NCBI RefSeq assembly: GCF_020731145.1 | Contig: NZ_JAJFZN010000003.1 | Span: 682,001-746,000 of the forward strand | Source of the DNA: Sneathiella sp. HT1-7 | GTDB lineage: Bacteria > Pseudomonadota > Alphaproteobacteria > Sneathiellales > Sneathiellaceae | Length of the DNA stretch: 64,000 nt | Direction of reading: 5' to 3' | Part shown: positions 6,988 through 23,492 of the stretch, piece after piece | Layout of the letters: the number at the start of each line of letters is the position of its first letter | Position numbering within the stretch: position 1 is the first letter of the stretch | The notes under the pieces: model-generated | Databases searched by the model: none | Told to the model about the DNA's origin: nothing | What the model saw: only the letters and a program-made list of their open reading frames with translations | Translations under genes and position numbers: made by a program

Positions 6988-9900
6988 CACAAGCTTTTCG
7001 CACAACATCTGGCGGGCGCATTGACCGCAGGAAGGCGATCAATTTCACCTTCAACGGCCAAAGCTACATCGGCTATGAGGGCGACACACTTGCTTCGGCC
7101 CTGCTGGCGAATGGCGTGCATCTTCTGGGGCGCAGTTTCAAATATCATCGCCCACGCGGAATTGTTGCCGCCGGAGCAGAAGAGCCCAACTCCATGGTCC
7201 AACTCGGTGAGGGGGCGACGACCGAGCCGAATATCCGCGCGACGCAAATCTCCCTCTATGAGGGGCTGACGGCCTCCAGCGTCAATGTCTGGCCGAATGT
7301 CGAGTTTGATATCAGCGCGATCAACGGCCTGTTTGCGAAGATCATGACGGCGGGTTTTTACAACAAAACGTTCATGTGGCCGCGTTCCATGTGGATGAAA
7401 CTATATGAGCCAGTTATCCGCCGGGCGGCTGGCTGGGGAAAGGCGCCGACGCAAACGGACCCGGATATCTATGATCATATGCATCTTCATGTGGAGGTGA
7501 TGGTGGTTGGTGGCGGTCCGGCGGGCCTGATGGCGGCGCTGGCGGCGGGGCGTGCGGGGGCTCGGGTCCTGCTGGTCGATGAGCAGAGCGAATTCGGCGG
7601 CAGTCTCCTCTCAAAAAAACGGCAAATCGGTGCCAAGGATGAGGCAGGCTGGATCGCCGATATGGCGGCGGAACTGGAAGCCATGCCCGATGTGACGCTG
7701 CTTTCGCGTTCGACCGCCTTCGGCTATTACGATCATAACTATCTCTGCGTGCTGGAACAGAAGACGGATCACCTTCCTGCTGCAGAACGCAAGGGCAAGG
7801 TAAGACAGCGGGTCTGGCATATTCGCGCGGGACAAGTCGTGCTCGCCACCGGGGCCCATGAACGGCCGCTGGTATTTGCCGATAACGACAGGCCGGGAAT
7901 CATGCTGGCGGGGTCTGTGCAGACTTACGTCAATCGCTATGGCGTCCTTCCGGGCAAGAAGATGGTTTTGTTCACCAATAACGACGCAGCTTATGAGGCG
8001 GCGATTGATCTGCAGGCGGCGGGCGGCGATGTGGTCGCGATCATTGACTGTCGGCATGAGGTGAGCGGGGAACTTGTCGATGCGGCCCGCGCGCTTGATA
8101 TCGAGATACTGGCGGGCTACGCAATCACCGGCACATCCGGCGGCAAGCGCGTCGAGAGTGTAGAAGTCCGGGCCATCCAGAAAGGCGCGAAGGTCTATAC
8201 TTCCGCCGCGCGGCAGATCGACTGCGATCTCGTCGCTATGTCCGGTGGATGGAGCCCGGTCGTCCATCTTTTCAGTCAGTCACAGGGCCAGCTTGAATAT
8301 GATGAGGAAAAAGTCTGCTTCCTGCCCGGAAAGCCCCGGCAGGCTCAACAGGTGGCAGGCGCACTCGCCGGTCAGTTTACTCTGAAGGAATGTCTGGCGG
8401 GCGGATATAAGGCGGGGGCGGATGCGGCGCGGGCAACCGGTTTCACCCCGAAGCGCAAGCCCGCCGCGCCGGAGATTGAAGAGCCGGACCTCGGCGGGAT
8501 TGAGCCTTTCTGGATCGTTCCGGGATCGCGCCCCATCGGGGAGGGAATGGCGAAACATTTCGTCGATTTGCAAAATGACACCACAGCGGCGGATATCGAG
8601 CTAGCGGTGCGCGAAGGCTTCGAGTCCGTTGAGCATATCAAACGCTATACCTTGACAGGTTTTGGCACGGATCAGGGAAAAACATCGAATATCAACGCGC
8701 TGGCCATTCTTTCCGGCATCCTCGATAAACCAATCCCCAAGGTCGGAACGACGACTTTCCGTCCGCCCTATACGCCGGTCTCCTATGGCGCGCTGGCCGG
8801 GCGCAACCTTGGCGACTGGTCCGATCCGGTGCGCGTAACCAGCATTCACGACTGGCATGTGGAGAATGGTGCCCTATTCGAAAATGTCGGGCAATGGAAA
8901 CGCCCCTGGTATTTCCCGAAAGCGGGCGAGACCATGCATGAGGCGCTCAATCGCGAATGCCTGGCGGTCAGGAATGCTGTTGGCGTTCTCGACGCCTCTA
9001 CCCTCGGCAAGATCGATATTCGCGGGCCCGATGCGGCAGAGTTTCTCAACCGCATTTATACCAACGCCTGGGCCAAGCTCGGGATCGGACGGGTGCGCTA
9101 TGGCCTGATGTGTCATGAGGATGGCATGGTGTTCGATGATGGCACCACGGCGCGGCTGGCGGAAGATCGCTTCCTGATGACGACAACGACGGGCGGCGCG
9201 GCAAGTGTTCTCGACTGGCTGGAGGAATATCTGCAAACCGAATGGCCGGAGCTTAAAGTCTATTGTACCTCGGTCACGGAGCAATGGGCGACGGTCTCCA
9301 TCGCCGGACCGAAGGCCGGGGCCGTGCTCAAAAAGCTCGCGCCGGAGATGGATTTGTCGCATGAAAATTTCCCGTTTCTCTCCTTTAAGGAAGGCACTGT
9401 TGCCGGGCTGAAGGCACGGGTTTTCCGCATCAGTTTCACGGGCGAGCTCAGCTATGAGATCAATGTCCCCTGGGCCAATGGTCTCGCCTTGTGGGAAGCC
9501 GTGATGGCGGCGGGCGCGGAATTTGATATCACCCCTTACGGCACGGAAAGCATGCATATCCTGCGGGCCGAAAAAGGTTTCATCATTGTCGGGCAGGAAA
9601 CCGACGGTACCACCACGCCACAAGATCTTGGCATGGACTGGATTGTCTCCAAGAAAAAGCCCGACTTTATTGGTAAACGGTCCTTCACACGGAGTGATAC
9701 GGCCCGCCCGGATCGTAAGCAGTTGGTCGGGCTCCTGACCGAAACTCCAGACGACGTATTACCCGAAGGAGCTCAGCTTGTTTTTGATCCGAATGTGCCG
9801 AAGCCTATTCCGATGGCGGGGCATGTGACGTCGAGTTATTACAGCGCGGCGCTTGGCCGGTCGATCGCACTCGCACTCGTCAAGGGCGGGCATGGGCGCA

Positions 9901-10001
9901 AAGGACAGAAGATTTTTGCCCCGCTGGAAGGTAAGACCGTGACGGCAGAAATCGTCGATCCGGTACTCTATGACAAGGAAGGGGAGCGATTGAATGGCTG
10001 A
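6984..10001 (+). CDS. soxA: Sarcosine oxidase, alpha subunit
   Basis: A 1005-residue subunit. The N-terminus has a ferredoxin-like fold without cluster cysteines (FTFNGQSYIGYEGDTLASALLANG). It is followed by a Rossmann dinucleotide-binding site, VVGGGPAGLMAALAAG, near residue 172. From about residue 610 onward there is a GcvT-like THF-binding domain (RNAVGVLDASTLGKIDIRGPDA, later GTESMHILRAEKG). In known enzymes this subunit binds NAD and delivers the sarcosine methyl group to THF as 5,10-methylene-THF. It is coupled to soxD and overlaps soxG by 8 bases. Length and order match the family. Confidence 0.94.
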   Translation: MTQAFRTTSGGRIDRRKAINFTFNGQSYIGYEGDTLASALLANGVHLLGRSFKYHRPRGIVAAGAEEPNSMVQLGEGATTEPNIRATQISLYEGLTASSVNVWPNVEFDISAINGLFAKIMTAGFYNKTFMWPRSMWMKLYEPVIRRAAGWGKAPTQTDPDIYDHMHLHVEVMVVGGGPAGLMAALAAGRAGARVLLVDEQSEFGGSLLSKKRQIGAKDEAGWIADMAAELEAMPDVTLLSRSTAFGYYDHNYLCVLEQKTDHLPAAERKGKVRQRVWHIRAGQVVLATGAHERPLVFADNDRPGIMLAGSVQTYVNRYGVLPGKKMVLFTNNDAAYEAAIDLQAAGGDVVAIIDCRHEVSGELVDAARALDIEILAGYAITGTSGGKRVESVEVRAIQKGAKVYTSAARQIDCDLVAMSGGWSPVVHLFSQSQGQLEYDEEKVCFLPGKPRQAQQVAGALAGQFTLKECLAGGYKAGADAARATGFTPKRKPAAPEIEEPDLGGIEPFWIVPGSRPIGEGMAKHFVDLQNDTTAADIELAVREGFESVEHIKRYTLTGFGTDQGKTSNINALAILSGILDKPIPKVGTTTFRPPYTPVSYGALAGRNLGDWSDPVRVTSIHDWHVENGALFENVGQWKRPWYFPKAGETMHEALNRECLAVRNAVGVLDASTLGKIDIRGPDAAEFLNRIYTNAWAKLGIGRVRYGLMCHEDGMVFDDGTTARLAEDRFLMTTTTGGAASVLDWLEEYLQTEWPELKVYCTSVTEQWATVSIAGPKAGAVLKKLAPEMDLSHENFPFLSFKEGTVAGLKARVFRISFTGELSYEINVPWANGLALWEAVMAAGAEFDITPYGTESMHILRAEKGFIIVGQETDGTTTPQDLGMDWIVSKKKPDFIGKRSFTRSDTARPDRKQLVGLLTETPDDVLPEGAQLVFDPNVPKPIPMAGHVTSSYYSAALGRSIALALVKGGHGRKGQKIFAPLEGKTVTAEIVDPVLYDKEGERLNG

Positions 10002-10560
10002 GACACCCTGGATCACCCCCGCCGCCGCTATTGCGGAAAGTTTCCCTGATGGTCTCAAGGAACTTGGCCCACGCGTGCAGGTCAATTTGCGCGGTGACGT
10101 TACTGATTCGACCTTTGTTAATGCGGTGAAAACCGCAACCGGTCTTGACCTTCCGGATGCGCCGAACAAGGTGGCGGCAGGTAAGGAGTGCAAGGCCCTC
10201 TGGCTTTCGCCCGATGAGTGGCTGCTAGTGGGAGAGGGGGAGGCAGCGTCCCTCGTTCAATCACTTGAAGAGGCGCTTTCAGGGCAATATGTCGCGATCA
10301 ATGATGTAAGCGCCAATCGCACGATTTTTGAGATCTCCGGCCCGTATTGTCACCAGGTGCTGATGAAAAGCTCTGAGGTGGATTTTCACCCTCGTGCCTT
10401 TGCTCCTGGCAACTGCGTCCAGACCTTGATTGCAAAATCGCAGGCCATTGTCGAGCAGGTGGGAAGGGAAATGTTTCACATTTATGTTCGCAATTCCTTC
10501 AGCAGATATGCCGGTGCCTGGCTGGCCGAAGCCTTGGTGGAATATAGCGAAACGTCTTAA
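9994..10560 (+). CDS. soxG: Sarcosine oxidase, gamma subunit
   Basis: A 188-residue GcvT-related subunit, the last member of the tetramer. The segments LWLSPDEWLLVG, INDVSANRTIFEISG and FSRYAGAWLAEAL are typical of SoxG. Its ATG lies inside the end of soxA. No terminator hairpin was seen after its stop, so some read-through into the following phosphatase is possible. Confidence 0.92.
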   Translation: MAETPWITPAAAIAESFPDGLKELGPRVQVNLRGDVTDSTFVNAVKTATGLDLPDAPNKVAAGKECKALWLSPDEWLLVGEGEAASLVQSLEEALSGQYVAINDVSANRTIFEISGPYCHQVLMKSSEVDFHPRAFAPGNCVQTLIAKSQAIVEQVGREMFHIYVRNSFSRYAGAWLAEALVEYSETS

Positions 10561-10671
10561 AGTTTTTGGAGTTTGTTGATTTACCCGAAATTTCGTTGGA
10601 ATAAATGTGGAGTTGTGCCGTTGCTGCTGCTATGAAGAGGCAGTTAGAATTCCCAGATGATCCGTGAGGCC

Positions 10672-11478
10672 ATGTCCAAAACCATTGTTATGACAGCCCC
10701 CATTACCGGCGAACTTGCCGATTTGGCGGACTTTACCTGTTCGCTGGCGACAACAGCCGCATCCGTCACCCGTTCCTATTTTCGTAAACCCATCGATGTT
10801 ATCCAGAAACTGGATAGCTCTCCGGTTACCATTGCCGATCGGGAATGTGAGGCTCGGCTCCGGGATATGATCACAGAACGTTTCCCGGGGCACGGCATTC
10901 TCGGCGAAGAACATGGCTTTGAAGGATCTGAACTTACTGATATCTGGGTGATTGATCCCATCGATGGCACCAAGAGTTTTATATCCGGCCTGCCGCTTTA
11001 CGGCACGCTCATCGCTTTTTCGCGGGATAAAGATGTGCGCATTGGCGCGATCTCCATGCCGGAACTCGATGAATTCTGGATTGGCATCGCGAACGAAGGC
11101 AGCTATTTCAATGGTACCCGCTGTCATACAAGTGATTGCCGCAAACTTGAAGACGCCATTCTGATGACTACTGCGCTTGAATATTTTTCCCCCGAAAATC
11201 GGGAGAAATTTGCAGCCTTGCGTGAAAAATCCCGTATTCGCCGTTATGGCGGAGATTGCTATATCTACGCGATGGTCGCCTCCGGCTGGGCCGACCTTGC
11301 TGTAGAGACGGGATTGCAAACCTATGACTATATGGCGCTCATCCCGGTGATAGAGGAAGCGGGCGGTGTCATCACGGATTGGTCCGGCAAACGGCCCGAT
11401 TTCAATTCGGACGGGACAATTGTTGCCGCGGCAACAAAGGAACTTCATCAACAGGCGCTTGAGATTTTGGGCCGTTAA
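10672..11478 (+). CDS. Inositol-monophosphatase-family phosphatase, probably histidinol-phosphatase (HisN type)
   Basis: A 268-residue lithium-sensitive-type phosphatase. It carries the metal-binding motifs GEEHG and DPIDGTKSFISG, and the C-terminal AVETGLQTYDYMALIPVIEEAGG, which reads like HisN from bacteria that lack HisB phosphatase. Such enzymes hydrolyse histidinol phosphate, inositol phosphate or 3'-phosphoadenosine phosphate; the exact substrate is inferred. The ATG at 10672 has GTGAGG just upstream and is preferred to the ATG at 10657, which has none. It stands 111 bases after soxG and 38 bases before the glutamine-synthetase-like gene. Confidence 0.85.
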   Translation: MSKTIVMTAPITGELADLADFTCSLATTAASVTRSYFRKPIDVIQKLDSSPVTIADRECEARLRDMITERFPGHGILGEEHGFEGSELTDIWVIDPIDGTKSFISGLPLYGTLIAFSRDKDVRIGAISMPELDEFWIGIANEGSYFNGTRCHTSDCRKLEDAILMTTALEYFSPENREKFAALREKSRIRRYGGDCYIYAMVASGWADLAVETGLQTYDYMALIPVIEEAGGVITDWSGKRPDFNSDGTIVAAATKELHQQALEILGR

Positions 11479-11516: not shown

Positions 11517-12884
11517 ATGGAAGCGCGTTTCGTTAAAACAGTCACCGATGCCCGCAGTATTATCGAAGATCGTGATCTTGATTTCGTCAAGGTCGGCGTT
11601 TTCGACATTGATGGCGTATTGCGCGGCAAATATCTCAGCAAAGACAAGTTTTTCAGCATTCTGGAAACCGGTTTCGGGTTCTGCGACGTGGTGCTCGGCT
11701 GGGACGTCAATGACCAACTTTATGATACCGAAAGCTATACTGGCTGGTCGAATGGCTATGCAGACGCCAAGGTTGTTCCGATTATTGATAGCTGTCGTGA
11801 ACTGCCGCTTGAAGATAACATGCTGTTTTTCCAGCTTGAATTTGGGGATCGTGCGGGGCATGTCTGCCCCCGCCAGACTTTGAAGCGTGTTCTCAAGCGA
11901 GCCGAAGATATGGGCATCAAGGCAACCGCGGCCTGTGAATTTGAGTTTTTTCTCTTTAAAGAGACGCCAGAATCGGTGCGCGAGAAAAACTATTACAATC
12001 TCGACACTTTTACACCGGGTAATTTCGGCTATTCGTTCCTTCGTGCGTCTGTCGAGCATAATTTCTACGAGCAGCTCCTTGCTCTCTGCGAAGAGATGGA
12101 TATGCCCATCGAAGGACTGCATACAGAAACAGGGCCCGGCGTGCTGGAAGCGGCTCTTGTCTATGATGAGGCCATGAAGGCGGCTGACAAAGGGGCGCTA
12201 TTTAAAACGTTCACTAAGATTCTTGCGCAGAAAAATGATCTGATGGCGACCTTCATGGCGAAATGGTCGCCTGATTATCCGGGCCAAAGCGGTCATATCC
12301 ATCTGTCGCTTCAGGGCAAGGACGGGGAGGGGCTCTTCTTCGACGAAGGTAAAGAGAATAATTTCAGCGATGCCATGCGCTATTTCATTGGTGGACAGCA
12401 AAAGCTGATGCCGGAATTTCTCGCGATGATCGCACCGACGATCAACAGTTATACCCGGATGATCCCCGGCTTTTGGGCACCGACGGAGGCAAGCTGGGGC
12501 ATTGAGAACCGGACCACTGCCCTTCGGGCAATCCCGGGGTCGGATAAATCGCAGCGTGTCGAATATCGGATCGCGGCGGCGGATATCAATCCGCATATTG
12601 CGATTGCGGCGGCTCTTGGCTCCGGCCTCTGGGGGATCGAGAACAAGATCGAGCCAACAACGGCAGTTGTCGGCAATGCCTATGATCAGGAATTTCCGGA
12701 AGAACTTACACTTCCCAAAACCCTGTGGGAAGCGACGCAGTTACTCAAGAAATCGACGGCGGCACGGGATCTCTTCGGGGATGCCTTTGTCGATCATTAT
12801 GCCGTCACCCGCGAGTGGGAAGAGCGGGAATTCCGCAAAGCCATTACCGATTGGGAAATGCAGCGTTACTTCGAGATTATCTAA
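11517..12884 (+). CDS. Glutamine-synthetase-family ligase (probable gamma-glutamyl-amine/amide synthetase)
   Basis: A 455-residue type I-like glutamine synthetase fold. Metal and active-site residues are present: Glu141 and Glu143 (CEFEFF), Glu204 and Glu211 (HTETGPGVLE), the SGHIHLS histidines near 260-262, Arg332 and Arg337 (ENRTTALR), and Glu349/Arg351 (EYR). The N-terminal IDGVLRGKYLSKDKF and the absence of an obvious adenylylation tyrosine site point to the PuuA/GlnT-like branch, which joins glutamate to amines, rather than housekeeping GlnA. Downstream sit a GATase1-like hydrolase and aldehyde/alcohol dehydrogenases, as in gamma-glutamylated amine pathways. GmaS (gamma-glutamylmethylamide synthetase) is an alternative, but its usual mgs partners are absent. 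Confidence 0.85.
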   Translation: MEARFVKTVTDARSIIEDRDLDFVKVGVFDIDGVLRGKYLSKDKFFSILETGFGFCDVVLGWDVNDQLYDTESYTGWSNGYADAKVVPIIDSCRELPLEDNMLFFQLEFGDRAGHVCPRQTLKRVLKRAEDMGIKATAACEFEFFLFKETPESVREKNYYNLDTFTPGNFGYSFLRASVEHNFYEQLLALCEEMDMPIEGLHTETGPGVLEAALVYDEAMKAADKGALFKTFTKILAQKNDLMATFMAKWSPDYPGQSGHIHLSLQGKDGEGLFFDEGKENNFSDAMRYFIGGQQKLMPEFLAMIAPTINSYTRMIPGFWAPTEASWGIENRTTALRAIPGSDKSQRVEYRIAAADINPHIAIAAALGSGLWGIENKIEPTTAVVGNAYDQEFPEELTLPKTLWEATQLLKKSTAARDLFGDAFVDHYAVTREWEEREFRKAITDWEMQRYFEII

Positions 12885-13350
12885 CCGGTTTTAAAGGCAG
12901 GCTCAAAAGGGGGAGTTCGCGCGCGTCCTCCACCTCTGACCGGCACCAGCCGACCTGCTTTGCGCCCATCCTTCTGTAGAAACCGACCGCGTTGGGGTCG
13001 GCCTCAATTCTGAGGTGGCTATAACCAAGACGGGAAGCCTTTTGCGCTGCCTCCTTCATCAGAGCACGTCCAAAGCCTCTTCCCATATGCAACGGTGAGA
13101 CATAGAGGAGCTGGAGTTCCGCCTCCTCTTTCTCAAACGACGCGAGATAGAACCCAGCGATTTGGCCTTTTCGGTCAATTACGCCGCTTTCCCACTGGGC
13201 TATCATCCGGGGTGTGATTGTAAGAACGGCTTCGCATTCACGCATGAAGTCTTCGGAATATCCCCAGAATGCTTTGGCCGTCAGGGCTACCTCGGTCATA
13301 GCCGGGCAATCCTTTTCGGTGGCGGGTCTGATTTTCGGCGGTGACAACAT
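12877..13350 (-). CDS. GNAT-family N-acetyltransferase
   Basis: A 157-residue acetyltransferase. The acetyl-CoA motif A is LLYVSPLHMGRGFGRALMKEAAQKA near residues 80-105, and motif B contains the common ADPNAVGFYRRMGAKQVG. The substrate is unknown. It is convergent with the ligase gene and overlaps its 3' end by 8 bases, and it is divergent from the MocR regulator with a 67-base gap. Position alone does not prove it belongs to the neighbouring pathway. Confidence 0.85.
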   Translation of the reverse strand: MLSPPKIRPATEKDCPAMTEVALTAKAFWGYSEDFMRECEAVLTITPRMIAQWESGVIDRKGQIAGFYLASFEKEEAELQLLYVSPLHMGRGFGRALMKEAAQKASRLGYSHLRIEADPNAVGFYRRMGAKQVGWCRSEVEDARELPLLSLPLKPVR

Positions 13351-13417
13351 ATTGAAAATATTCCTATCATGAGAAAACCAGTGCCAATTTAACTTCCTTT
13401 AGCCGGGGTTCCGCAAG

Positions 13418-14866
13418 TTGCTTTTTACCATTGATCGAAGCCTGCAAAAACCTGTCCAGAATCAGCTGCGTGAGCAGATCATCGCGGCGTTGATGAACGG
13501 GCAGTTGATCGCCGGTGAAAAAATGCCCTCCAGCCGCAAGCTTGCGAAGGATCTCAAAATTTCTCGCACCACGGTAATGATCGTTTATGACAAGTTGGTG
13601 GAGGGGAATTTTCTTGTCGCACTGCCTCGCTCAGGCTATCGCGTGAGTGATATCGCGCTAAATATTGAGAATGCGCCGCAAGAGGAAGTAGGTACCGACA
13701 ACTCTGGCGGGACAGTTGATTGGGAGAGGTTGCTGGAAAGCCGCCTCGGTCGTCAGCGCAATATCGTCAAGCCTGCAAACTGGCAGGATTATCCCTATCC
13801 CTTCGTCTATGGGCAGCCTGATGCCAGCCTGTTTCCGCTGCCGGCCTGGCGGGAATGTTCCCGGCAAGCGATGAGCCGCCTCGCCATGCGCGACTGGGCC
13901 AACGACGCCGTGATGGCGGATGATCCGGAACTGATTACCGAAATTCGCTCCAAACTACTCCCCAAACGCGGCATTTATGCGGACGAGTCGGAAATTCTGA
14001 TCACGCTTGGCGCACAAAATGCGCTTTATCTTATCGCTGCCGTACTGATGCAGGAAGGAATGACCGTCGGCATTGAGGATCCAGGATATCCGGATGCGCG
14101 CAATATCTTTGATCGGCGTGGTGCATCCCTGATTCCGCTTGGCGTGGATGAAAATGGGGTTGTGATTGATGGAAATGTGGCGAAGTCGGAAATTCTCTAT
14201 GTCACGCCGAGCCATCAGTATCCGACAACGGTGACTCTATCGCCAGAGCGGCGCAAGGCACTCCTGGCATCAGCGGCGGAAAACAACTCGCTTATCATCG
14301 AGGATGATTTCGAAAGCGATACCAATTATATGGGCGCCGCTGTTGCCGCGCTCAAATCGGAGGATCGGGACGGGCGGGTGATTTACGTTGGCAGTCTGTC
14401 AAAATCCATGTTTCCGGGGCTGAGGCTTGGATTTATTGTCGCACCGGAACGATTGATCCGGGAGTTGCGGACCCTGCGGCGGTTAATGCTCCGTCACGCG
14501 CCGAGTAATAATCAGCGCACGACCGCTCTCTTCATCGCGCAAGGATATCACCTTTCCTATATCCATAAGCTGCATAAAGCTTATGGGGAGCGTTGGCACC
14601 GCATGGCGGCGGCACTGACAGAGCATATGCCGGGCATGACGACTGCGCCGCGGTTCGGTGGGACAAGTTTCTGGATCAAGGGGCCTGAAGAACTTGATTC
14701 AAAGGAGTTAGCAACGCGCGCGCTTGATAAAGGCATCGTTCTGGAACCGGGTGCAGTCCATTTTATGGAAGAGGCCGTGGGGCAGCGCTATTTCAGGCTC
14801 GGCTTTTCCTCCATTGCGCTTGGCCGGATAGAAGAGGGAATTAAGCGGCTGGCGGCTCTTCTTTAG
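13418..14866 (+). CDS. MocR/PdxR-type transcriptional regulator (GntR HTH fused to aminotransferase fold)
   Basis: A 482-residue fusion. The winged helix at residues 10-80 (QLREQIIAALMNGQL, SSRKLAKDLKISRTTV) is joined to a class I aminotransferase domain. That domain contains IIEDDFESD and the PLP-lysine motif GSLSKSMFPGLRLGF. MocR proteins bind pyridoxal phosphate and often activate amine or amino acid catabolic genes beside them. The start is TTG at 13418 after CCGGGG; no in-frame ATG fits. It lies immediately upstream of the dioxygenase and amidotransferase genes, which are its likely targets. Confidence 0.9.
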   Translation: MLFTIDRSLQKPVQNQLREQIIAALMNGQLIAGEKMPSSRKLAKDLKISRTTVMIVYDKLVEGNFLVALPRSGYRVSDIALNIENAPQEEVGTDNSGGTVDWERLLESRLGRQRNIVKPANWQDYPYPFVYGQPDASLFPLPAWRECSRQAMSRLAMRDWANDAVMADDPELITEIRSKLLPKRGIYADESEILITLGAQNALYLIAAVLMQEGMTVGIEDPGYPDARNIFDRRGASLIPLGVDENGVVIDGNVAKSEILYVTPSHQYPTTVTLSPERRKALLASAAENNSLIIEDDFESDTNYMGAAVAALKSEDRDGRVIYVGSLSKSMFPGLRLGFIVAPERLIRELRTLRRLMLRHAPSNNQRTTALFIAQGYHLSYIHKLHKAYGERWHRMAAALTEHMPGMTTAPRFGGTSFWIKGPEELDSKELATRALDKGIVLEPGAVHFMEEAVGQRYFRLGFSSIALGRIEEGIKRLAALL

Positions 14867-14973
14867 CGTTCGATTTTAAATCTGGTAGATATGAATCGGT
14901 GAAATTGGTACTATCGTTGCCAGGAAGAATGACTTAGCTATTTTCTATCAGCAGATTTAATCATTCTGGAAAA

Positions 14974-15840
14974 ATGGGGAATGCCATGGGATACAATACA
15001 ATTGAAGTCCAGCCGCTAACATCTTGTATTGGAGCAGAAATCGCAGGCGTCGATTTGTCCAAATCTCTCTCGGACGAGCAGTTCCAAGACGTCCATGATG
15101 CGCTTGTCGACAATCATGTGGTTTTCTTCCGCAATCAGGAAATTACACCCGAGGGTCAGCTTGAATTTGCAAAACGGTTCGGCACCCCCGAAGTGCATCC
15201 CATTGTTGAAGGCTCTAACGCCCATCCCGAGTTGATTGAGGTTTTGAAACCGGCAGGTGAGGGTGCTTCCTTCGGGACGGGTTGGCATACGGACAATACA
15301 TTCTTTGAAAAACCAACCATGGTAACGATGCTGTATGGTATTGATATCCCACCGGTTGGCGGCGATACGCTCTGGGCCAGCATGGAGGCAGCTTATGATG
15401 CTCTTTCAGATGGCATGAAAGAATTGCTCGACGGGCTGGTTGCTGTGCATTCGGCAAGCGTTGCGTTCGATCCACGCCACACCCGCGAGAAATATGAAGG
15501 CAAACATAGCCTTAAATACACATACTCTGACGCTGTGGAAATGGAAGTCGAACATCCGCTGATCCGCACTCATGAGGTTTCCGGGCGCAAGGGAATTTTC
15601 GTCAATCCCATGTTTACCCTCCGGATCAAGGGCATGGCGGATGCCGAAAGTGCCCCGCTGCTGAAGTATCTCTATGATTTCTCAACCAAGCCTGAATTTG
15701 TTTGCCGCTTCCGCTGGCAGCCTAAATCAGTCGCCATGTGGGATAATCGTTGCACACAGCATTATGCTATGAATGATTATGTGCAGTATCGGCGGTTTAT
15801 GCGCCGTGTCACCATCGGCGGCGATACGCGTCCCGTATAA
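14974..15840 (+). CDS. TauD/TfdA-family Fe(II)/2-oxoglutarate-dependent dioxygenase
   Basis: A 288-residue enzyme. The iron triad is visible: His105 and Asp107 (GWHTDNTF) and His263 (CTQHYAMND), with Arg residues at 274-278 for 2-oxoglutarate. Family members hydroxylate taurine, 2,4-D, alkylsulfonates, gamma-butyrobetaine-like or other carboxylate substrates; the substrate cannot be read here. ATG at 14974 or 14986 are both possible; the second has GGGGA five bases upstream. It lies 107 bases after the MocR regulator and 15 bases before the GATase1-like gene, so these two likely form one operon. Confidence 0.9.
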   Translation: MGNAMGYNTIEVQPLTSCIGAEIAGVDLSKSLSDEQFQDVHDALVDNHVVFFRNQEITPEGQLEFAKRFGTPEVHPIVEGSNAHPELIEVLKPAGEGASFGTGWHTDNTFFEKPTMVTMLYGIDIPPVGGDTLWASMEAAYDALSDGMKELLDGLVAVHSASVAFDPRHTREKYEGKHSLKYTYSDAVEMEVEHPLIRTHEVSGRKGIFVNPMFTLRIKGMADAESAPLLKYLYDFSTKPEFVCRFRWQPKSVAMWDNRCTQHYAMNDYVQYRRFMRRVTIGGDTRPV

Positions 15841-15855
15841 GAAAAGGGCTTGGCT

Positions 15856-16719
15856 ATGGCGCGTAAGACCGCTCGATTTCTAGTGCTTGATGGCTATCCT
15901 ATGGAGCATCGTGGGCCTCTCGCGGAGAATGGCGGGACACTTGCGGGCGATCTTTATGCGCAGATGCTGAAAGAATGCGAGCCCGGATGTGAAGTGGATA
16001 TTATTTTCCCGGCGGATGCGGATTGCAGGCTACCCACCGGGGCAGGCCTTGAGGCGTATCACGGGATTTGTTGGACAGGATCAAGCCTGACAATCCATGA
16101 TGAGGCCGATCCGCGTGTGACCCGCCAGATCGACTTTGCAAAAGCTGCCTATGAGGCGAAAACACCGATGTTCGGAAGTTGCTGGGCCGCGCAAATGGCG
16201 GTGACGGCGGCGGGCGGTAAATGTGCAAAGAATCCGAAGGGCCGGGAATTCGGTCTTGCTCGCAAAATCAGCCTGAATGACGCGGGCCGCGCTCACCCGA
16301 TGTATGAGGGGAAAAAGGCTGTCTTCGATGGTTTCACCAGTCATGAAGATGAAGTCGCGGAGCTTCCCGAAGGGGCTGTTCTGCTTGCCGGTAATGATTT
16401 TTCCCATGTGCAGGCAGTGGATGTAACTCATAAGGGCGGTAGTTTCTGGGCCGTGCAATATCATCCTGAGTATGATTTTAACGAAGTAGCGAGCCTTTGT
16501 CGCTGGCGCCGTGAAGCGCTTACCAAGCAGGGAAACTTTGCCTCACTTGATGATGCGGACCAGTTTATCGATAGAATGCAGGCGCTGCATGAGTCACCAG
16601 GTACAAGTTATCTTCGCTGGCAATTAGGGGTGGATGACGATGTGTTGGAGACCCGTGTTAAGCAGCAAGAGGTGCGCAACTGGCTTACGGTGAAAATTCA
16701 TCCCCGGCTCAATGACTAG
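15856..16719 (+). CDS. Class I glutamine-amidotransferase-like protein (possible gamma-glutamyl hydrolase)
   Basis: A 287-residue stand-alone GATase1 domain with a full triad: Cys109 (MFGSCWAAQ), His203 and Glu205 (VQYHPEYDF). Stand-alone members include PuuD, which hydrolyses gamma-glutamyl-GABA, and GuaA-like amidotransferase homologues. No synthase partner lies beside it, so hydrolysis of a gamma-glutamyl amide, made by the ligase at 11.5 kb, is a reasonable inference. The ATG at 15856 has AAAGGG seven bases upstream and is preferred to the TTG six bases earlier. It ends 20 bases before the convergent DeoR gene. Confidence 0.82.
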   Translation: MARKTARFLVLDGYPMEHRGPLAENGGTLAGDLYAQMLKECEPGCEVDIIFPADADCRLPTGAGLEAYHGICWTGSSLTIHDEADPRVTRQIDFAKAAYEAKTPMFGSCWAAQMAVTAAGGKCAKNPKGREFGLARKISLNDAGRAHPMYEGKKAVFDGFTSHEDEVAELPEGAVLLAGNDFSHVQAVDVTHKGGSFWAVQYHPEYDFNEVASLCRWRREALTKQGNFASLDDADQFIDRMQALHESPGTSYLRWQLGVDDDVLETRVKQQEVRNWLTVKIHPRLND

Positions 16720-16739
16720 GGATGCGGCATCTCCAAAAG

Positions 16740-17492
16740 TCAGGCGATCATGATCCGGTCGCGGCCAATTTTATCAATTATACTCTGCGGGGGCAGCTGA
16801 TCGGTCAGGAGAAGGTCAATAGCGTCAAAATCGCACACTTTGACCACTCCTGGTCGATTAAATTTCGTATGATCGGCAACCACGATTACGCTGGCGGCTT
16901 GAGGCAGAATCGCCCGCTTGAACTCGGCCTCCCCAAGGTCGCAATCCAAAAACCCCTGATCGGCACTGACCGCAGCAATCGAGAGGATGGCTCGTTCCGT
17001 CGCGAATTGTTTCGCAAAATTGACGGCGGTCGGGCCATAGGTCGCGCTGTCATCCGCTCGGATTTCGCCGCCCGCCATGAAAACCTTATTGCTGTTGCGG
17101 GCACAGAGGTCGCGCGCAACCTCGGTCGAATTGGTCACTACCGTAAGGTCCCGGCGCGAACTCAAAGCTTTCGCGACGTAGCAGGAAGTGCTGCCATTGT
17201 CGATCAGCAGGGTCTCCCCGTCTACAATGAGGGACGCAGCAAGCTCCGCAATTTTTTGTTTGATAGTCCGCTGTGTTTCAAGGCGTCGCAGGAACGGAGC
17301 TTCCAGTGCGGTATTGGGCAGCATCACCCCGCCGTGAATTTTTTCAACCGCGCCAAACTTCGCCATTTCTTTAATGTCACGGCGAATCGTTTCGTCAGAG
17401 ACGTCCAGTCGCTTCGCCAGATCTACAATTCCGCAAGATCTTTCGACCTGCAGCATATTCATGATGGCAAATTGCCGTTTATTTTGTTTCAT
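16740..17492 (-). CDS. DeoR/GlpR-family transcriptional repressor
   Basis: A 250-residue regulator with an N-terminal DeoR helix-turn-helix (CGIVDLAKRLDVSDETIRRDI) and a C-terminal DeoRC sensor domain (LLIDNGSTSCYVAKAL). The family usually senses phosphorylated sugars or related metabolites. The start at 17492 has GGGGA just upstream and gives the standard family length; an upstream ATG at 17606 would add 38 unlikely residues. It is divergent from the aldehyde dehydrogenase gene, across a 210-base region with three inverted repeats, so it probably represses that operon and itself. Confidence 0.9.
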   Translation of the reverse strand: MKQNKRQFAIMNMLQVERSCGIVDLAKRLDVSDETIRRDIKEMAKFGAVEKIHGGVMLPNTALEAPFLRRLETQRTIKQKIAELAASLIVDGETLLIDNGSTSCYVAKALSSRRDLTVVTNSTEVARDLCARNSNKVFMAGGEIRADDSATYGPTAVNFAKQFATERAILSIAAVSADQGFLDCDLGEAEFKRAILPQAASVIVVADHTKFNRPGVVKVCDFDAIDLLLTDQLPPQSIIDKIGRDRIMIA

Positions 17493-17702
17493 ATTTCCCC
17501 GCTGACAGCCGACATTAGACGGCATTTTTTTAGAATACGTAGCATGTTTTGGGAAAAAATGAAACATCGTGTGGGAATCCACATTTTTTGCCTTCATAAA
17601 ACACAAAACATGATCACTAAAAATGTGATTTTTTGAAAATTTCTGATTAGAAATTTGCTGAATAATGCTAGAAATATCAAACGCCTAGATTGGAGAGTAT
17701 AG
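17493..17702. promoter_or_regulatory. Divergent promoter/operator region between deoR-like and aldehyde dehydrogenase genes
   Basis: AT-rich and holding three perfect inverted repeats: TGTGG-GAAT-CCACA (17570-17583), ATCAC-N7-GTGAT (17613-17629) and AAATTTC-N6-GAAATTT (17637-17656). The centres of the last two are about 25 bases apart. They are good candidates for DeoR-family operators overlapping the aldehyde dehydrogenase promoter. The gene itself follows TTGGAGAG at 17690-17697. Confidence 0.55.
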
Positions 17703-19094
17703 ATGTCAGAAGGTTTAAAAACGATCAGCCCGATGGATGGTAGCCTTTATGTGGAACGTGCCTATACGCCGCTTTCGACCGTTGACACTATGCTTGATGC
17801 AGCGCAATCCGCTCAGAGGGCGTGGCAGAAGAAGTCGATCGCCGAACGGGCGGCGCTGCTTGAGAAATGTGTCGATAATTTCATCTCCAAAAAGGACGTG
17901 ATTGTTGAGGAACTGGCCTGGCAGATGGGCCGACCGGTTAAGTTTGGCGCAGGTGAGGTTGGCGGCTTTGAAGAACGCTCCCGCCATATGATCTCCATTG
18001 CAGAAGAAGCCTTGAAAAACATTAAGGTGCCGGAAAAATCCGGCTTTACCCGTTATATCAAGCGGGAACCGGTTGGCGTAGTCTTCACCATTGCGCCCTG
18101 GAACTTCCCTTATATGACGGCGGTGAACTCTATTGTGCCAGCGCTAATGGCAGGTAACGCCGTTATCCTGAAGCATGCAACGCAGACCCATCTCTGTGGG
18201 GAACGGATGGTCGAAGCCTTTGTTGAGGCGGGGCTGCCGAAGGACCTTTTCCAGATTGTCGTTGCCAGTCATCAAATGGCGGCATCCATCATCCAGTCCG
18301 ATAAGGTGAATTATGTCTGCTTTACAGGCTCTGTTCCGGCGGGCAAGGCCATAGAAGAAGCTGCTGTTGGCCACTTCCTTGGCGTGGGGCTGGAGCTGGG
18401 CGGTAAGGATCCGGCCTATGTGCGGCGCGATGCGGATGTTGCCTATGCAGCAGAAAATCTCGTTGATGGCGCGATGTTCAATTCTGGTCAGTCCTGCTGC
18501 GGGATAGAGCGGATTTATGTGCACGCCGATGTCTATGATGAATTCGTCGCAAATTTCGTTGAGGTGGTGAAGGGCTACAAGCTTGGCTCTCCCATTGATC
18601 CGGAAACGACACTGGGCCCGCTTGTCAATGCGAAGGCCGCGGATTTTGTACGTGGACAGATCGCGGATGCGGTGAAGGCCGGGGCGAAATCCTTGATTGA
18701 CCCTGCGCTCTTCCCTGAAGATAAGCCAGGCACAGCATATATGGCTCCGGATGTGATCGTTGATACCGATCACGGTATGCGGATAATGACCGAGGAAAGC
18801 TTTGGCCCTGTGGTCGGTATCATGAAGGTCGCCTCTGATGAGGAGGCAGTCAGCCTGATGAATGACAGCGAGTTTGGCCTGACCGCATCCGTCTGGACCA
18901 ACGACGAAGCAGCCGCCATCCGTATTGGCGATCAGGTCAATACAGGTACCTGGTTCATGAATCGCTGCGACTATCTCGACCCGGCTCTTGCCTGGACGGG
19001 CGTCAAGAATTCCGGTCGTGGCTGTACTTTATCATCGGTGGGTTACGAAAGCTTGACCCGGCCGAAATCCTATCATTTACGAACCAAAATTTAA
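17703..19094 (+). CDS. NAD(P)-dependent aldehyde dehydrogenase
   Basis: A 463-residue enzyme of the ALDH superfamily. It shows APWNFPYMTAVNSIVPAL (cofactor region), the general-base Glu in LELGGKDP near residue 232, and the catalytic Cys in NSGQSCCG near 263. The second adjacent Cys is common in the family. It oxidises an aldehyde to an acid; the substrate is not visible. It forms an operon with the iron alcohol dehydrogenase 10 bases downstream, so an alcohol-to-aldehyde-to-acid route is likely. In context it could be the PuuC-like step after gamma-glutamylation. Confidence 0.92.
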   Translation: MSEGLKTISPMDGSLYVERAYTPLSTVDTMLDAAQSAQRAWQKKSIAERAALLEKCVDNFISKKDVIVEELAWQMGRPVKFGAGEVGGFEERSRHMISIAEEALKNIKVPEKSGFTRYIKREPVGVVFTIAPWNFPYMTAVNSIVPALMAGNAVILKHATQTHLCGERMVEAFVEAGLPKDLFQIVVASHQMAASIIQSDKVNYVCFTGSVPAGKAIEEAAVGHFLGVGLELGGKDPAYVRRDADVAYAAENLVDGAMFNSGQSCCGIERIYVHADVYDEFVANFVEVVKGYKLGSPIDPETTLGPLVNAKAADFVRGQIADAVKAGAKSLIDPALFPEDKPGTAYMAPDVIVDTDHGMRIMTEESFGPVVGIMKVASDEEAVSLMNDSEFGLTASVWTNDEAAAIRIGDQVNTGTWFMNRCDYLDPALAWTGVKNSGRGCTLSSVGYESLTRPKSYHLRTKI

Positions 19095-19104
19095 GGGAAC
19101 ACAT

Positions 19105-20286
19105 ATGCCAACAGACGCAAGCGCCCTGAATGGGAACTGGAACTATCCGACAGCTATGCGCTTCGGTGTGGGCCGACTACAGGAGTTGGGTGAGACCTGC
19201 AAGGAAGTGGGCATGAAAAACCCACTTCTGGTGACTGATCCGGGCCTTGCAGCATTACCTATGATCGCCGAGGCGATGGAGAGTTGCAAAAAGGCTGGCG
19301 TTGGCTGCGGTCTTTTTAGTGATATCAAGGCAAATCCGGTGGGCAAAAATGTTGATGACGGCGTTGCGGTCTATAAAGCCGGCGGCCATGATGGCGTAAT
19401 AGCCTTTGGCGGTGGCTCCGGTATTGATGCGGCCAAGGCGGTCGCGGTGATGGCGCAGCAGACGGAGACTGTGTTCGGCTATCTCGACGGCGGCCACGAT
19501 TGGGAAGATATTCCGGCAACCGAAATACCACCGATTATTGCTATCCCGACAACCTCCGGCACCGGGTCCGAAGTCGGTCGCGCGTCTATTATTACAGATG
19601 AAGAAAACCATGTGAAGCGGATCGTCTTCAATCCGAAGATGATGCCGTCGGTTGTCATTGGCGACCCGGCTTTGACTGTCGGATTACCGCAGATGATTAC
19701 CGCTGCGACGGGGATGGATGCCCTGTCGCATAATCTGGAAGCTTTTTGCTCTCCGCATTTTCATCCGATGGCAGAAGGCATAGCCATTGAGGGAATTCGC
19801 CTGGTGAAGGAGTATCTACCTACTGCGACGTTTGAAGGCAGTAACCTCGTCGCCCGTAGCCAGATGATGATGGCGTCGTCTATGGGGGCGACAGCGTTTC
19901 AGCGCGGCCTCGGTGGAATGCATGCACTCGCACATCCGTTGGGCGCGCTATATGATGCGCATCACGGCATGCTGAACGCGATCCTGATGCCCTATGTGTT
20001 GATCCGCAACCGGGACGTCATTGCAGATAGATTGGCGCGGCTTTCCGCATATCTCGGATTGGCCAACCCGTCTTATGATTCATTTCTGACCTGGGTGCTG
20101 GCAATACGGGAGGAACTGGATATCCCGAACGATCTTTCCGCGCTCAGTATCGACACTAAACAATCTGATCTTGTTGGACGCATGGCGGTAGAGGACCCAT
20201 CCTCGGGAGGCAACCCTATTTCTCTTTCCCCTGATGAGTATAGTCGCCTGTTTGAGAAGGCTGTGACTGGCGATTTATCGGCCTAG
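19105..20286 (+). CDS. Iron-containing (group III) alcohol dehydrogenase
   Basis: A 393-residue enzyme. The NAD site is GGGSGIDAAKAVAV, with TTSGTGSEVGR after it. Iron ligands are expected in TGMDALSHNLEAF (Asp and His) and in the histidines of GGMHALAHPLGALYDAHHG. It interconverts an alcohol and an aldehyde, presumably feeding the aldehyde dehydrogenase just upstream. The region after its stop shows no clear terminator. Confidence 0.93.
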   Translation: MPTDASALNGNWNYPTAMRFGVGRLQELGETCKEVGMKNPLLVTDPGLAALPMIAEAMESCKKAGVGCGLFSDIKANPVGKNVDDGVAVYKAGGHDGVIAFGGGSGIDAAKAVAVMAQQTETVFGYLDGGHDWEDIPATEIPPIIAIPTTSGTGSEVGRASIITDEENHVKRIVFNPKMMPSVVIGDPALTVGLPQMITAATGMDALSHNLEAFCSPHFHPMAEGIAIEGIRLVKEYLPTATFEGSNLVARSQMMMASSMGATAFQRGLGGMHALAHPLGALYDAHHGMLNAILMPYVLIRNRDVIADRLARLSAYLGLANPSYDSFLTWVLAIREELDIPNDLSALSIDTKQSDLVGRMAVEDPSSGGNPISLSPDEYSRLFEKAVTGDLSA

Positions 20287-20421: not shown

Positions 20422-22047
20422 TTGGACGGAACTGTAGTTCTCATCAATCTATTGGGCGGAGTCGCCCTTCTCTTGTGGGGCCTGCGCATGGTCAGCACGG
20501 GAGTCATGCGCGCCTTTGGGCGTGAACTCGGCCTGTTCCTTAAATTCTGTCTCAAAAACCGTATCCGGGCTTTCTTTGGTGGCTTGACCGTAACAATGAT
20601 GTTGCAAAGCAGCACCGCGACGGCCCTTTTAACAGCGTCCTTCGCAGGCCGCGGTTTGCTTCCCGCGACTGCTGCTATTGCCATTATTCTTGGTGCGGAT
20701 GTGGGGACGACCCTCGTTGCCCAGTTGCTCAGCCTCGATCTCTCTTTCCTTGCGCCGGTATTTTTGTTTGCCGGGTTTGTCCGGCATGCCACGGCGAATG
20801 CGACGCGTGCCAAAAATCTCGGACGGATCATGTTGGGCCTTGGGATTATGCTCACAGCCCTGAAATTGCTGTCCCTTGCATCGGAACCGATCCGCGATTC
20901 TTCCGTCTCGCAGTTCGTTCTGAGTTCTCTGTCGGGTGAGCCGGTGCTGGTCGTGCTGATTGCGGCGATTATCACCCTGATCGCCCATTCCTCTCTGGCG
21001 ACGGTTCTTTTCGCGCTGTCATTATCACTGAGCGGTCATTTCCCGATAGATGTTGCCTATGCCATTGTCCTCGGGGCAAACCTTGGCGGGGCCGTGCCGC
21101 CGATTATGGCGACGCTAAAGGCAGAGAGGGCGGCGCGACGGGCTCCGCTTGCCAACCTTATCTGCCGATTGGTCATTGTTATTGCGATTATTCCGTTTAT
21201 TGGATTGATCGAACCACAACTTGCCGCGTTCGAGGCTGACGCCGGACGTCAAATCGTCAATTTCCACACCCTGATTAACCTAACATGCGCCCTGCTTTTC
21301 TTACCATTTGTCGGACCGCTTGGCCGCTTGACAGAGCGATTGCTTCCCGACGAGGTCGAGGAGGATACCAACACGCCTCAGCCGCAATATCTCGACAAGG
21401 CCGCACTTGAAAGCCCGCAGCTTGCTATGGCAAATGCTGTGAGAGAGACATTGCGCATGGGGGACGTGCTGGAAAAAATGTGCCGCTCACTTCGCCAGAC
21501 TTTTGGCGGAAAAGAGGCGCATTTACTCAGACAAATCCGTGACGATAACAATGTGATCAAGGAATTTGACGGCGCGATCAAGGCGTATCTCACTCAGCTG
21601 GGCCGGGAATCGCTCGATGAGCAGGATGAAAAACGTTGCACCGAGATTTTGAATTTTACGACAGCCATTGACCATATTAGCAATATTGTGGTGATGAATA
21701 TGCTCGAGCTGGTGGAGACGGTCCATAAAAACCAGACCGCCCTCTCAGATGAGGATTTGCGCGATGAGGTGCGTCTGCTGGATATGGTATTGGGTAACCT
21801 CCGCATGTCTTTCAGCGTGCTAATGACGGAAAATGCGGTTACCGCGAATAACCTGATTCAGCATAAACAGACTTTTCGGATGGCGGAGCGGCGGGCGGTG
21901 GATGAACATCTTCGTCGCCTTCGAAACGATCAAATGCTCGATCAGGAAGCCAGTGCCATTCACCTGAGTCTGCTCGGTGATATGCGGCGTATCAACTCGC
22001 TTCTGTCGTCAATCGCCTACCTGGTCGTGGGGCAGAAAGAACAATAG
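20422..22047 (+). CDS. Na+/phosphate cotransporter-like membrane protein with PhoU-like C-terminus
   Basis: A 541-residue protein. The first ~310 residues are hydrophobic, with the paired motifs LQSSTATALL and AHSSLATVLF that mark the inverted-repeat NptA/PNaS family. The last ~200 residues are helical, charged and PhoU-like. It is predicted to sit in the inner membrane and move phosphate, or an unknown anion, with sodium. The start is TTG at 20422 after CAGAGG; the hydrophobic stretch begins at once, so no later start fits. It is convergent with the glycerophosphodiesterase gene. Confidence 0.85.
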   Translation: MDGTVVLINLLGGVALLLWGLRMVSTGVMRAFGRELGLFLKFCLKNRIRAFFGGLTVTMMLQSSTATALLTASFAGRGLLPATAAIAIILGADVGTTLVAQLLSLDLSFLAPVFLFAGFVRHATANATRAKNLGRIMLGLGIMLTALKLLSLASEPIRDSSVSQFVLSSLSGEPVLVVLIAAIITLIAHSSLATVLFALSLSLSGHFPIDVAYAIVLGANLGGAVPPIMATLKAERAARRAPLANLICRLVIVIAIIPFIGLIEPQLAAFEADAGRQIVNFHTLINLTCALLFLPFVGPLGRLTERLLPDEVEEDTNTPQPQYLDKAALESPQLAMANAVRETLRMGDVLEKMCRSLRQTFGGKEAHLLRQIRDDNNVIKEFDGAIKAYLTQLGRESLDEQDEKRCTEILNFTTAIDHISNIVVMNMLELVETVHKNQTALSDEDLRDEVRLLDMVLGNLRMSFSVLMTENAVTANNLIQHKQTFRMAERRAVDEHLRRLRNDQMLDQEASAIHLSLLGDMRRINSLLSSIAYLVVGQKEQ

Positions 22048-22053
22048 TCCGGT

Positions 22054-22809
22054 TTAGCTTTTCAACAGGCCAAGCATCCGGTCAGGAAAGTCTGTGATTA
22101 CTGCATCGGCGCCCCAGCCGAGAAACTTTTTCGCCTCCTCTGGATCGTTAACCGTATAGACAAGCACACGATATCCGGCGCTCCTGATGGCATTGATGTG
22201 ATCCTCCGTCACATAATGCCGTTCACAATGAAGGGAGGCGCAGTCATACTCTTTCATTCGCTTTTCCCAATCCGGAGGAATAGCGGAGGTGAGATAACCA
22301 AGCGGAACTTCTGGGAGGTGCTTTCGCACCTCGATCAGGCATTCCACGGCGAAAGAAGAGATCAGAAGCGGTAGGTCCTCCGGCCAGTAATCAAGTAGTT
22401 CTTTAGCGACCTGTACCGCTGTTGGGATTTGCCAGCCAACTGTGGGTTTGATCTCTAGATTGAGGCCAAGGCCGAGTTCCTGCAATATGTCTGTTGCCTC
22501 TCTCAAGGTCGGGATGTGTTCTCCTGTGAACTCCGGTGAGAACCAGCTACCCGCATCGAGGGCGCGGACCTCTTCCAGAGATTTAAGCAAGATTGGCCCG
22601 CTGCCGTTTGTACAGCGGCGGACGTCGGCATCATGCTGGATAATGGCCGAGTTGTCCTGCGTGAGCGTTACATCAATTTCAACGAAGGAAGTACTGAGCT
22701 CTGCTGCTTTCCGAAGAGAGGCTAGTGTATTTTCGGGCGCGTGCCCACTGGCTCCACGGTGGCCGACGACTTTTGGCATCTTTTGAAACAGTTTTTCTGC
22801 GCTTATCAT
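22054..22809 (-). CDS. Glycerophosphodiester phosphodiesterase
   Basis: A 251-residue GDPD-fold enzyme. It shows GHRGASGHAPENTLAS and EIDVTLTQDN with QHDADVRR, carrying the catalytic histidines and metal-binding Glu/Asp. It releases glycerol-3-phosphate from deacylated phospholipids. There is no signal peptide, so it is probably cytoplasmic (UgpQ-like). The ATG at 22809 has AAAGGA upstream and starts two bases after the ung stop; the longer form from 22851 would run into ung. The adjacent phosphate transporter suggests a link to phosphorus supply. Confidence 0.92.
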   Translation of the reverse strand: MISAEKLFQKMPKVVGHRGASGHAPENTLASLRKAAELSTSFVEIDVTLTQDNSAIIQHDADVRRCTNGSGPILLKSLEEVRALDAGSWFSPEFTGEHIPTLREATDILQELGLGLNLEIKPTVGWQIPTAVQVAKELLDYWPEDLPLLISSFAVECLIEVRKHLPEVPLGYLTSAIPPDWEKRMKEYDCASLHCERHYVTEDHINAIRSAGYRVLVYTVNDPEEAKKFLGWGADAVITDFPDRMLGLLKS

Positions 22810-22811
22810 CT

Positions 22812-23492
22812 CTATTCCTTTAACGACCAGTCGATTGGCGTCTGACCGCACTGGCGAAGATACTCATTGGCCTTTGAAAAATGTCCGTTACCGATAAAGC
22901 CCCTATGCGCCGACAGCGGGGATGGGTGTGAGCTCTGTAGAACCAAATGTCTCTGCCGGTCAATAAAGCTGCCCTTTTTCTGAGCATAACTGCCCCAAAG
23001 AAGAAAGACGAGATGTTCGCGTTTCTCATTGAGGGCGGCAATGGCGGCATCGGTGAATTGTTCCCAACCCTTGCCCTGATGTGCGCCGGCCTTCGCCTGC
23101 TCCACGGTGAGGACGGCATTCAAGAGCAATACTCCCTGATCGGCCCAATGCTCCAGATTGCCTTGCGTCGGAGAGGGAAGGCCAAGGTCCCGGTTCAATT
23201 CCTTATAGATATTGCGAAGAGACGGCGGGATCTGCACACCGGATGGAACGGAGAAGCTGAGGCCATGTGCCTGACCGGGGCCGTGGTAGGGATCCTGCCC
23301 CAATATTACAAGTTTTACCTGATCGAAGGGCGTGTGGTTGAAGGCTGCAAATATACTGTCGCCTGGTGGAAAAATAACTTTTCCGGCTGCCTTTTCCGCC
23401 ACCAGAAATTCCCGCAAATTCCGCATGTAGGGTTTGTTGAATTCTGGGCCTAACTGCTCGAGCCAGCTTTTTTCCAGCTTTATGTCGCTCAA
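22812..23492 (-). CDS. ung: Uracil-DNA glycosylase
   Basis: A 226-residue family 1 UDG that removes uracil from DNA. The water-activating Asp67 lies in [13 protein letters not shown], and the C-terminal [11 protein letters not shown] motif carries the catalytic His. Length is normal. It is followed directly by the glycerophosphodiesterase gene on the same strand. Confidence 0.97.

Follow-up and report, generated by a model that had tools for sequence, protein, structure and literature searches.

A likely ethanolamine gamma-glutamylation pathway in Sneathiella, with a TauD-GATase1 module inserted in part of the genus

Gamma-glutamylation of ethanolamine has been described as a catabolic route in several bacteria. 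For Phaeobacter sp. MED193, the primary report gives an operon in the order RpiR, GGAH, EtoVWX, ligase, aldehyde dehydrogenase (ALDH), and alcohol dehydrogenase (ADH), whose proteins rise on phosphorylethanolamine and whose EtoX binds ethanolamine with a Kd of 7.9 uM; the same report states that closely related genes have been demonstrated as the ethanolamine pathway in Chromohalobacter salexigens and Agrobacterium tumefaciens (PMC10132767). A similar route was proposed following GlnA4 of Streptomyces coelicolor (PMC6529630, PMC9397018). Here, we analyze a window of 64,000 nucleotides from Sneathiella sp. HT1-7 (Alphaproteobacteria; NZ_JAJFZN010000003.1, positions 682,001 to 746,000), in which a glutamine synthetase (GS)-like ligase, a TauD/TfdA-family dioxygenase, a stand-alone class I glutamine amidotransferase (GATase1), an ALDH, and an iron ADH are interleaved with MocR and DeoR regulators. 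Very probably, the ligase, iron ADH, and ALDH constitute the core of the known ethanolamine pathway, while MocR-TauD-GATase1 is a separate module that was inserted in part of the genus. The assignment to ethanolamine is drawn from gene families, gene order, and neighbors, our alignments not extending to the proteins of MED193, to GlnA4, or to the C. salexigens proteins that have been tested.

Along the strand, ligase, ALDH, and ADH run in the same order in the window as in the MED193 pathway (RpiR-GGAH-EtoVWX-ETAGA-GAADDH-GETADH; MED193_10046-10056), with ALDH and ADH occupying the gene-order places of MED193_10051 and MED193_10056, respectively. In contrast to MED193, the window has a GNAT acetyltransferase, MocR, TauD, GATase1, and DeoR between ligase and ALDH, its enzymes are flanked by DeoR rather than RpiR, and its genome is without EtoX. 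Some members of the genus carry the RpiR-FGase-TRAP (tripartite ATP-independent periplasmic transporter) half at a second locus, the pathway then being split over two loci. The S. coelicolor pathway shares the logic of ligase, dehydrogenase, ALDH, and amidohydrolase (PMC6529630), but it has a short-chain dehydrogenase where the window has an iron ADH, and the regulator differs. With the Puu pathway of Escherichia coli, the window has a ligase, an ALDH, and a class I GATase hydrolase in common, although the ligases fall into different tree groups and it would be an alcohol dehydrogenase, not TauD, that fills the role of PuuB.

Judging by gene family and order, the ligase would join glutamate to ethanolamine at the expense of ATP, yielding gamma-glutamylethanolamide, the hydroxyl of which would be oxidized by the iron ADH to give gamma-glutamyl-aminoacetaldehyde. 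The ALDH would then convert this aldehyde to gamma-glutamylglycine, and a hydrolase would release glutamate and glycine, the candidates for this last step being the local GATase1 and an FGase-family enzyme encoded elsewhere. The MocR-TauD-GATase1 module, sitting between the ligase and DeoR-ALDH-ADH, would be dispensable for the first three steps. In the putrescine route, PuuB makes an aldehyde from a free amine end, whereas ethanolamine is a primary alcohol. Since ethanolamine thus already carries a hydroxyl from which, by established chemistry, an iron ADH can make the aldehyde, the oxidase that the first-pass annotation reported as missing would not be needed. Its absence here points to an amino-alcohol substrate and not to a substitute oxygenase, which corrects an attractive misreading.

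The ligase itself is neither GlnA nor PuuA. Among 130 aligned rows of the ligase family, a number that includes duplicates from overlapping loci, the equivalents of the GlnA active-site residues E129, E131, E212, E220, H269, R321, R339, R344, R355, E357, and R359 are kept without exception. The first-pass annotation had described the GS active-site residues as complete, which is correct for these eleven but not for the position of Glu327, which is Trp in all 130 rows (Trp320 in the window ligase), nor for Asn264 and Tyr179, which are changed to Pro and Phe in most rows. Asp50 is Asp in 122/130. The Glu327 position is also Trp in IpuC and is Tyr in PuuA, and this set of residues agrees better with a ligase for amines than with one for ammonia. 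In a quick tree of 59 rows, calculated without bootstrap and with the MED193 and GlnA4 sequences not among the rows, 44 ligase family rows form one side of a branch with an SH-aLRT (SH-like approximate likelihood ratio test) support of 100, with GlnA, PuuA, IpuC, and distant GS-like rows on the opposite side. The ligase hence falls in a group of its own, while the order of the outside rows is unsure because several carry long branches.

The linkage of the three core genes extends well beyond Sneathiella. A scan of named genomes was confined to the best 80 of 589 confirmed stretches, and the sample thus leans towards close relatives (ligase identity, 63 to 96%). Eight of these loci were assigned to the genus, five of them on their titles and three because they match genus contigs. 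Of the 72 others, 49 have at least 6.5 kb downstream of the ligase. Neighbors were scored on the same strand within -6/+6.5 kb, and the gene counts depend on the similarity thresholds used. In the 49 testable loci, an ALDH is found near the ligase in 45, an ADH in 41, and both in 39, so that ligase-ALDH-ADH is a conserved proteobacterial cassette. A permease or TRAP homologue is present in 17, and an FGase or GATase homologue in 21, of the 37 non-Sneathiella loci with room on both sides. The sole permease scanned (L091) scores 550 bits with TIGR00908, "ethanolamine permease" (cut-off, 381.75), and the sole substrate-binding protein tested (L079) matches PDB entry 4uab (6.5e-159), presumably Csal_0678. 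Csal_0678 is reported to bind ethanolamine (PMC4646407). Comparable arrangements are found in plasmid records of Legionella lytica (GS, ALDH, iron ADH, and "GMP synthase" in a row), Burkholderia vietnamiensis (RpiR-GS-ALDH-GATase), and a member of the Rhodobacteraceae (FGase-GS-ALDH). With a ligase group of its own and a conserved linkage to ALDH and ADH, the locus does look like the gamma-glutamylated amine pathway proposed in the first-pass annotation. The reservation made there, that the grouping may be partly accidental, does not apply to ligase-ALDH-ADH; TauD-GATase1, a real pair, is joined to the cluster only in part of the genus.

A number of observations weigh against the ethanolamine assignment or parts of it. 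Ten of the 49 testable loci lack an ALDH or an ADH nearby (L062, L073, L075, L082, L087, L095, L097, L106, L108, and L125). The solved ligase 5dm3, which we take to be from Chromohalobacter, is distant from the window ligase (210 bits), and it is equally distant from a Billgrantia ligase encoded beside an EtoX-like binding protein (219 bits). No EtoX homologue was found in the window's own genome (E <= 1e-20), and an ethanolamine permease was found in 0/24 genomes of the genus set (E <= 1e-60); among named records, the closest matches to the ligase come from Sneathiella. As an importer is no pathway enzyme, this lowers the claim of uptake and not that of the enzymes. Finally, the local GATase1 groups with TauD-paired rows and is separated from 11 rows that stem from ethanolamine operons (support of 94 for the branch of these 11, no bootstrap), although one paired row (L167) is placed only loosely with the remaining five. 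Fam 14, a more distant GATase family that follows ADH in many gammaproteobacterial loci, was left out of this tree. The split weakens the last step, and with it the idea that the local GATase1 is the usual hydrolase of such operons: it is not simply that enzyme, though it may do the same job.

Elsewhere in the genus, an EtoX homologue (63 to 73% identity) is present in 12/24 genomes, with an internal stop in two. Three of five EtoX loci fetched (L258, L259, and L263) read RpiR-FGase-DctQ-DctM-EtoX with RpiR divergent, while L260 and L261 have neither RpiR nor FGase next to EtoX; in 7/12 EtoX genomes, the coordinates place an FGase homologue no more than about 3 kb from EtoX. FGase homologues occur in 22/24 genus genomes, and the window genome has three FGase-family genes away from the locus, one of which matches the FGase of a ligase operon at 36%. 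Possibly, the ligase pathway in Sneathiella acts on another amino alcohol or amine, e.g., 1-amino-2-propanol or 3-aminopropanol, as the lack of both EtoX and permease in the window's own genome might suggest. We consider this unlikely, given that the window ligase is 77 to 90% identical to the ligases of those ten genus members that carry an EtoX gene as well, and that ligase family neighbors elsewhere include ethanolamine-type transporters. No literature joining Sneathiella with ethanolamine was found. The ethanolamine reading implies that an ocean-relevant route occurs in this genus in split form, with the known importers not found in the window's own genome.

The first-pass annotation had assigned the place of PuuB to the dioxygenase: TauD would hydroxylate a gamma-glutamylated amine, and ALDH, ADH, and GATase1 would finish the route. 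TauD-GATase1 indeed lies inside the cluster, all 14 of the 24 genus genomes with TauD (E <= 1e-90) are among the 15 with GATase1 (E <= 1e-20; in the fifteenth, G015, GATase1 is cut by a contig end), and other oxygenases are known to act after a glutamylation step. However, TauD is found near the ligase in 0/72 non-Sneathiella loci (0/49 with at least 6.5 kb downstream), and of the 20 genus genomes with the ligase, TauD is present in 13 and absent from 7. In six of these seven, ligase-DeoR-ALDH-ADH is kept in one stretch, the seventh (G009) stopping at a contig end; DeoR thus stands beside ALDH-ADH also where TauD is absent. S. sedimenti (L049), which can be cultured, has the full set, and in S. 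chungangensis (L051) TauD-GATase1 is missing from this locus. Given, moreover, that the published ethanolamine pathway needs no oxidase, we reject TauD as a PuuB substitute on its distribution and regard the idea as extremely improbable. Nor is the logic of ligase, oxygenase, and hydrolase new, as had been supposed. In aniline dioxygenase systems, a Rieske dioxygenase is accompanied by a gamma-glutamylanilide synthase and by a GAT-like hydrolase (PMC11335346), and a plasmid cluster with ipuC encodes an SDR and a P450 along with a glutamine amidotransferase. Both bring a glutamyl ligase, a GAT-like enzyme, and an oxygenase together, as does the window, but they handle aromatic amines or isopropylamine with a Rieske dioxygenase or a P450, whereas the window has a 2-oxoglutarate oxygenase.

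The alternative that TauD and GATase1 form a pathway of their own, a MocR/PdxR-like regulon between the two ethanolamine halves, with an FGase elsewhere hydrolyzing gamma-glutamylglycine, is one on which we are evenly divided; it is compatible with our explanation of the ligase-ALDH-ADH core. In 289 genomes of the class, a TauD homologue is present in 85 (E <= 1e-60) and GATase1 in 35 (E <= 1e-40), and 9 of the 30 GATase1 loci examined from this search have TauD adjacent, 6 of them outside the genus. Of the twelve best TauD places listed outside the genus, six are these pairs and six are unpaired; in the wider TauD family, too, almost every member is unpaired. A TauD clade of 21 rows comprises the genus TauDs, the six paired rows, and four unpaired ones (SH-aLRT 98, quick tree). 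Across 398 genomes of the phylum, a set that overlaps partly with the genomes searched earlier, GATase1 was found in 11 (E <= 1e-50), and none of the eight new loci had TauD adjacent. The six non-Sneathiella pair genomes were found to have no orthologous ligase (best identity, 36%), a negative that is weak for G114, where no GS match of any kind was obtained. The separate pathway is favored by these ligase-free pairs, by the GATase1 tree, by the PdxR-like MocR, by the wide presence of FGase homologues in the genus, and by published PdxR regulons, which often hold RimI/RimL acetyltransferases and a GuaA-family amidotransferase (PMC5320631). Against it, the module is at this very place within the genus wherever contigs permit a check, and among ligase-bearing genus genomes TauD is present in 8/10 without EtoX and in 5/10 with EtoX. 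The latter could hint at a link, but no conclusion can be drawn from so small a sample of related genomes; the two EtoX-less genomes in which TauD is absent are G009 (65% complete) and G023.

Whichever applies, TauD-GATase1 is a recurring oxygenase-amidotransferase unit and a clear assay target, and the locus as a whole is a known pathway with a genus-level TauD-GATase1 insertion. The GATase1 is a candidate gamma-glutamyl hydrolase or glutaminase. Its triad, C111/H205/E207 when counted from the TTG start, corresponds to the previously annotated C109-H203-E205 when numbered from an ATG two codons further in, and Cys-His-Glu is found in 91/91 aligned rows (window, PuuD, and duplicates counted). 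Among the literature matches listed (titles and abstract starts), there was no paper on a TauD-amidotransferase pair with an ethanolamine or gamma-glutamyl link.

As for the substrate of TauD, alignment confirms the annotated iron ligands H105/D107/H263, and the E. coli TauD equivalents of the iron ligands, of what we take to be the 2-oxoglutarate Arg, and of His70 and Arg270 (sulfonate) are all kept. An ordinary taurine dioxygenase, freeing sulfite from taurine, would be consistent with the latter two residues and with a score of 288.2 bits for the taurine dioxygenase model, albeit under the cut-off of 313. We nevertheless consider this very improbable, since E. coli D94, N95, S158, and Y73 are F, G, A, and V in the window TauD and, as far as the window is annotated, no taurine transporter genes adjoin it. 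Asp94, Asn95, and Ser158 hold the amine of taurine, and changes there slow the E. coli enzyme (PMC9304159). Phe, Gly, and Ala at these three positions also occur in the ten other genus rows of the alignment, and the Phe-Gly change is no mark of this TauD clade alone, as it is common to most rows of the wider TauD family. The replaced amine contacts weaken the case for a plain taurine dioxygenase; such a pocket speaks against free taurine as the substrate and favors an acid that has no free amine at its other end. RdpA, an enzyme with a carboxylic acid as its substrate, is at least as near to the window TauD in sequence as E. coli TauD. Conceivably, TauD-GATase1 could connect to the ethanolamine route as an added oxidative branch, by way of a substrate that is glutamylated and bears an acid group, although we consider this very unlikely. 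Either TauD would desulfonate gamma-glutamyltaurine to gamma-glutamyl-aminoacetaldehyde and sulfite, with entry at the ALDH, or a TfdA-like split of gamma-glutamylglycine would give glyoxylate plus glutamine, from which GATase1, acting as a glutaminase, would regenerate glutamate. Both chemistries would use a pocket that keeps the oxyanion-binding His and Arg without the free-amine contacts. A literature search for gamma-glutamyltaurine gave, among the matches listed, none that contained the word.

The five enzymes and two regulators of the first-pass annotation are intact open reading frames where it had placed them, with the domains that it named (Table 1); the GNAT gene, which was absent from its list, is beside the ligase in part of the genus. 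MocR is the head of the inserted module. The likely transcription units are MocR-TauD-GATase1 and ALDH-ADH, because DeoR and ALDH diverge, as do GNAT and MocR; the spacing is 9 bases from TauD to the TTG start of GATase1 and 10 bases from ALDH to ADH.

Table 1. Genes of the ligase locus in window coordinates, with domain evidence.
Feature	Position	Strand	Domain evidence	Remark
Putative gamma-glutamylethanolamide synthetase (GS-like ligase)	11517..12884	+	Gln-synt_C 329 bits (Pfam)	Proposed first step
GNAT acetyltransferase	12877..13350	-	Acetyltransf_10 + Acetyltransf_1 (Pfam)	Divergent from MocR
MocR-type regulator, PdxR-like	13418..14866	+	NF052282 PdxR 356.4 bits, cut-off 320 (NCBIfam)	
TauD/TfdA-family 2-oxoglutarate dioxygenase	14974..15840	+	TauD 237.5 bits (Pfam)	
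Stand-alone class I GATase (GATase1)	15850..16719	+	GATase 54.6 bits (Pfam)	
DeoR/GlpR-family regulator	16740..17606	-	DeoRC + HTH_DeoR (Pfam)	Divergent from ALDH
Aldehyde dehydrogenase (ALDH)	17703..19094	+	Aldedh 411.6 bits (Pfam)	
Iron alcohol dehydrogenase (ADH)	19105..20286	+	Fe-ADH 163.2 bits (Pfam)	

Some of the loci encountered have further features. Upstream of TauD in L163, L164, and L165 lies a gene for a SoxB- and SoxA-like oxidoreductase; a domain scan, made for L163 alone, showed DAO and GCV_T in the protein, whose gene follows an XRE-cupin gene. In L167 (7715-9163), a sodium:alanine symporter gene directly precedes TauD-GATase1, a possible clue to substrate size. In L212 (5246-10275), a GATase1 of the same branch, without TauD, follows genes for a HAD hydrolase, a choline-kinase-like protein, and SoxB/SoxA-like oxidoreductases, and in L211 a gene of similar appearance, close to a PbfA-type ammonia-lyase, precedes GATase1. 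In the TauD-less loci L034 and L035, the neighbors of MocR belong to the same gene family, the L034 member of which encodes a class III aminotransferase. The TauD gene of G016 holds two TGA stops, and in G008 GATase1 and ADH each align in two pieces (L041 13170-14023 and 16438-17609), frameshift-like, which may reflect decay or assembly error.

Upstream of the ligase in the window (289-11478) lies a sarcosine/one-carbon block with a RACo-type protein, a formate-tetrahydrofolate ligase, sarcosine oxidase subunits, a HisN-type phosphatase, and a GbdR-like AraC regulator (400 bits, under the cut-off of 480); sarcosine oxidation ends in glycine, as does ethanolamine catabolism. The ADH is followed (20422-22851) by genes for an Na/Pi cotransporter and a glycerophosphodiester phosphodiesterase (Pfam; the latter under its NCBIfam cut-off), which could free ethanolamine from lipid headgroups. 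Further on (23618-29038) are genes for a urea-type ABC transporter, of which those scanned score under the Urt cut-offs, together with genes for a binding protein and an isochorismatase-fold hydrolase; the substrate is perhaps an amide or urea-like. Not far from the sarcosine genes, an S-formylglutathione hydrolase and a class III alcohol dehydrogenase (29860-31820), both above their cut-offs, point to formaldehyde detoxification.

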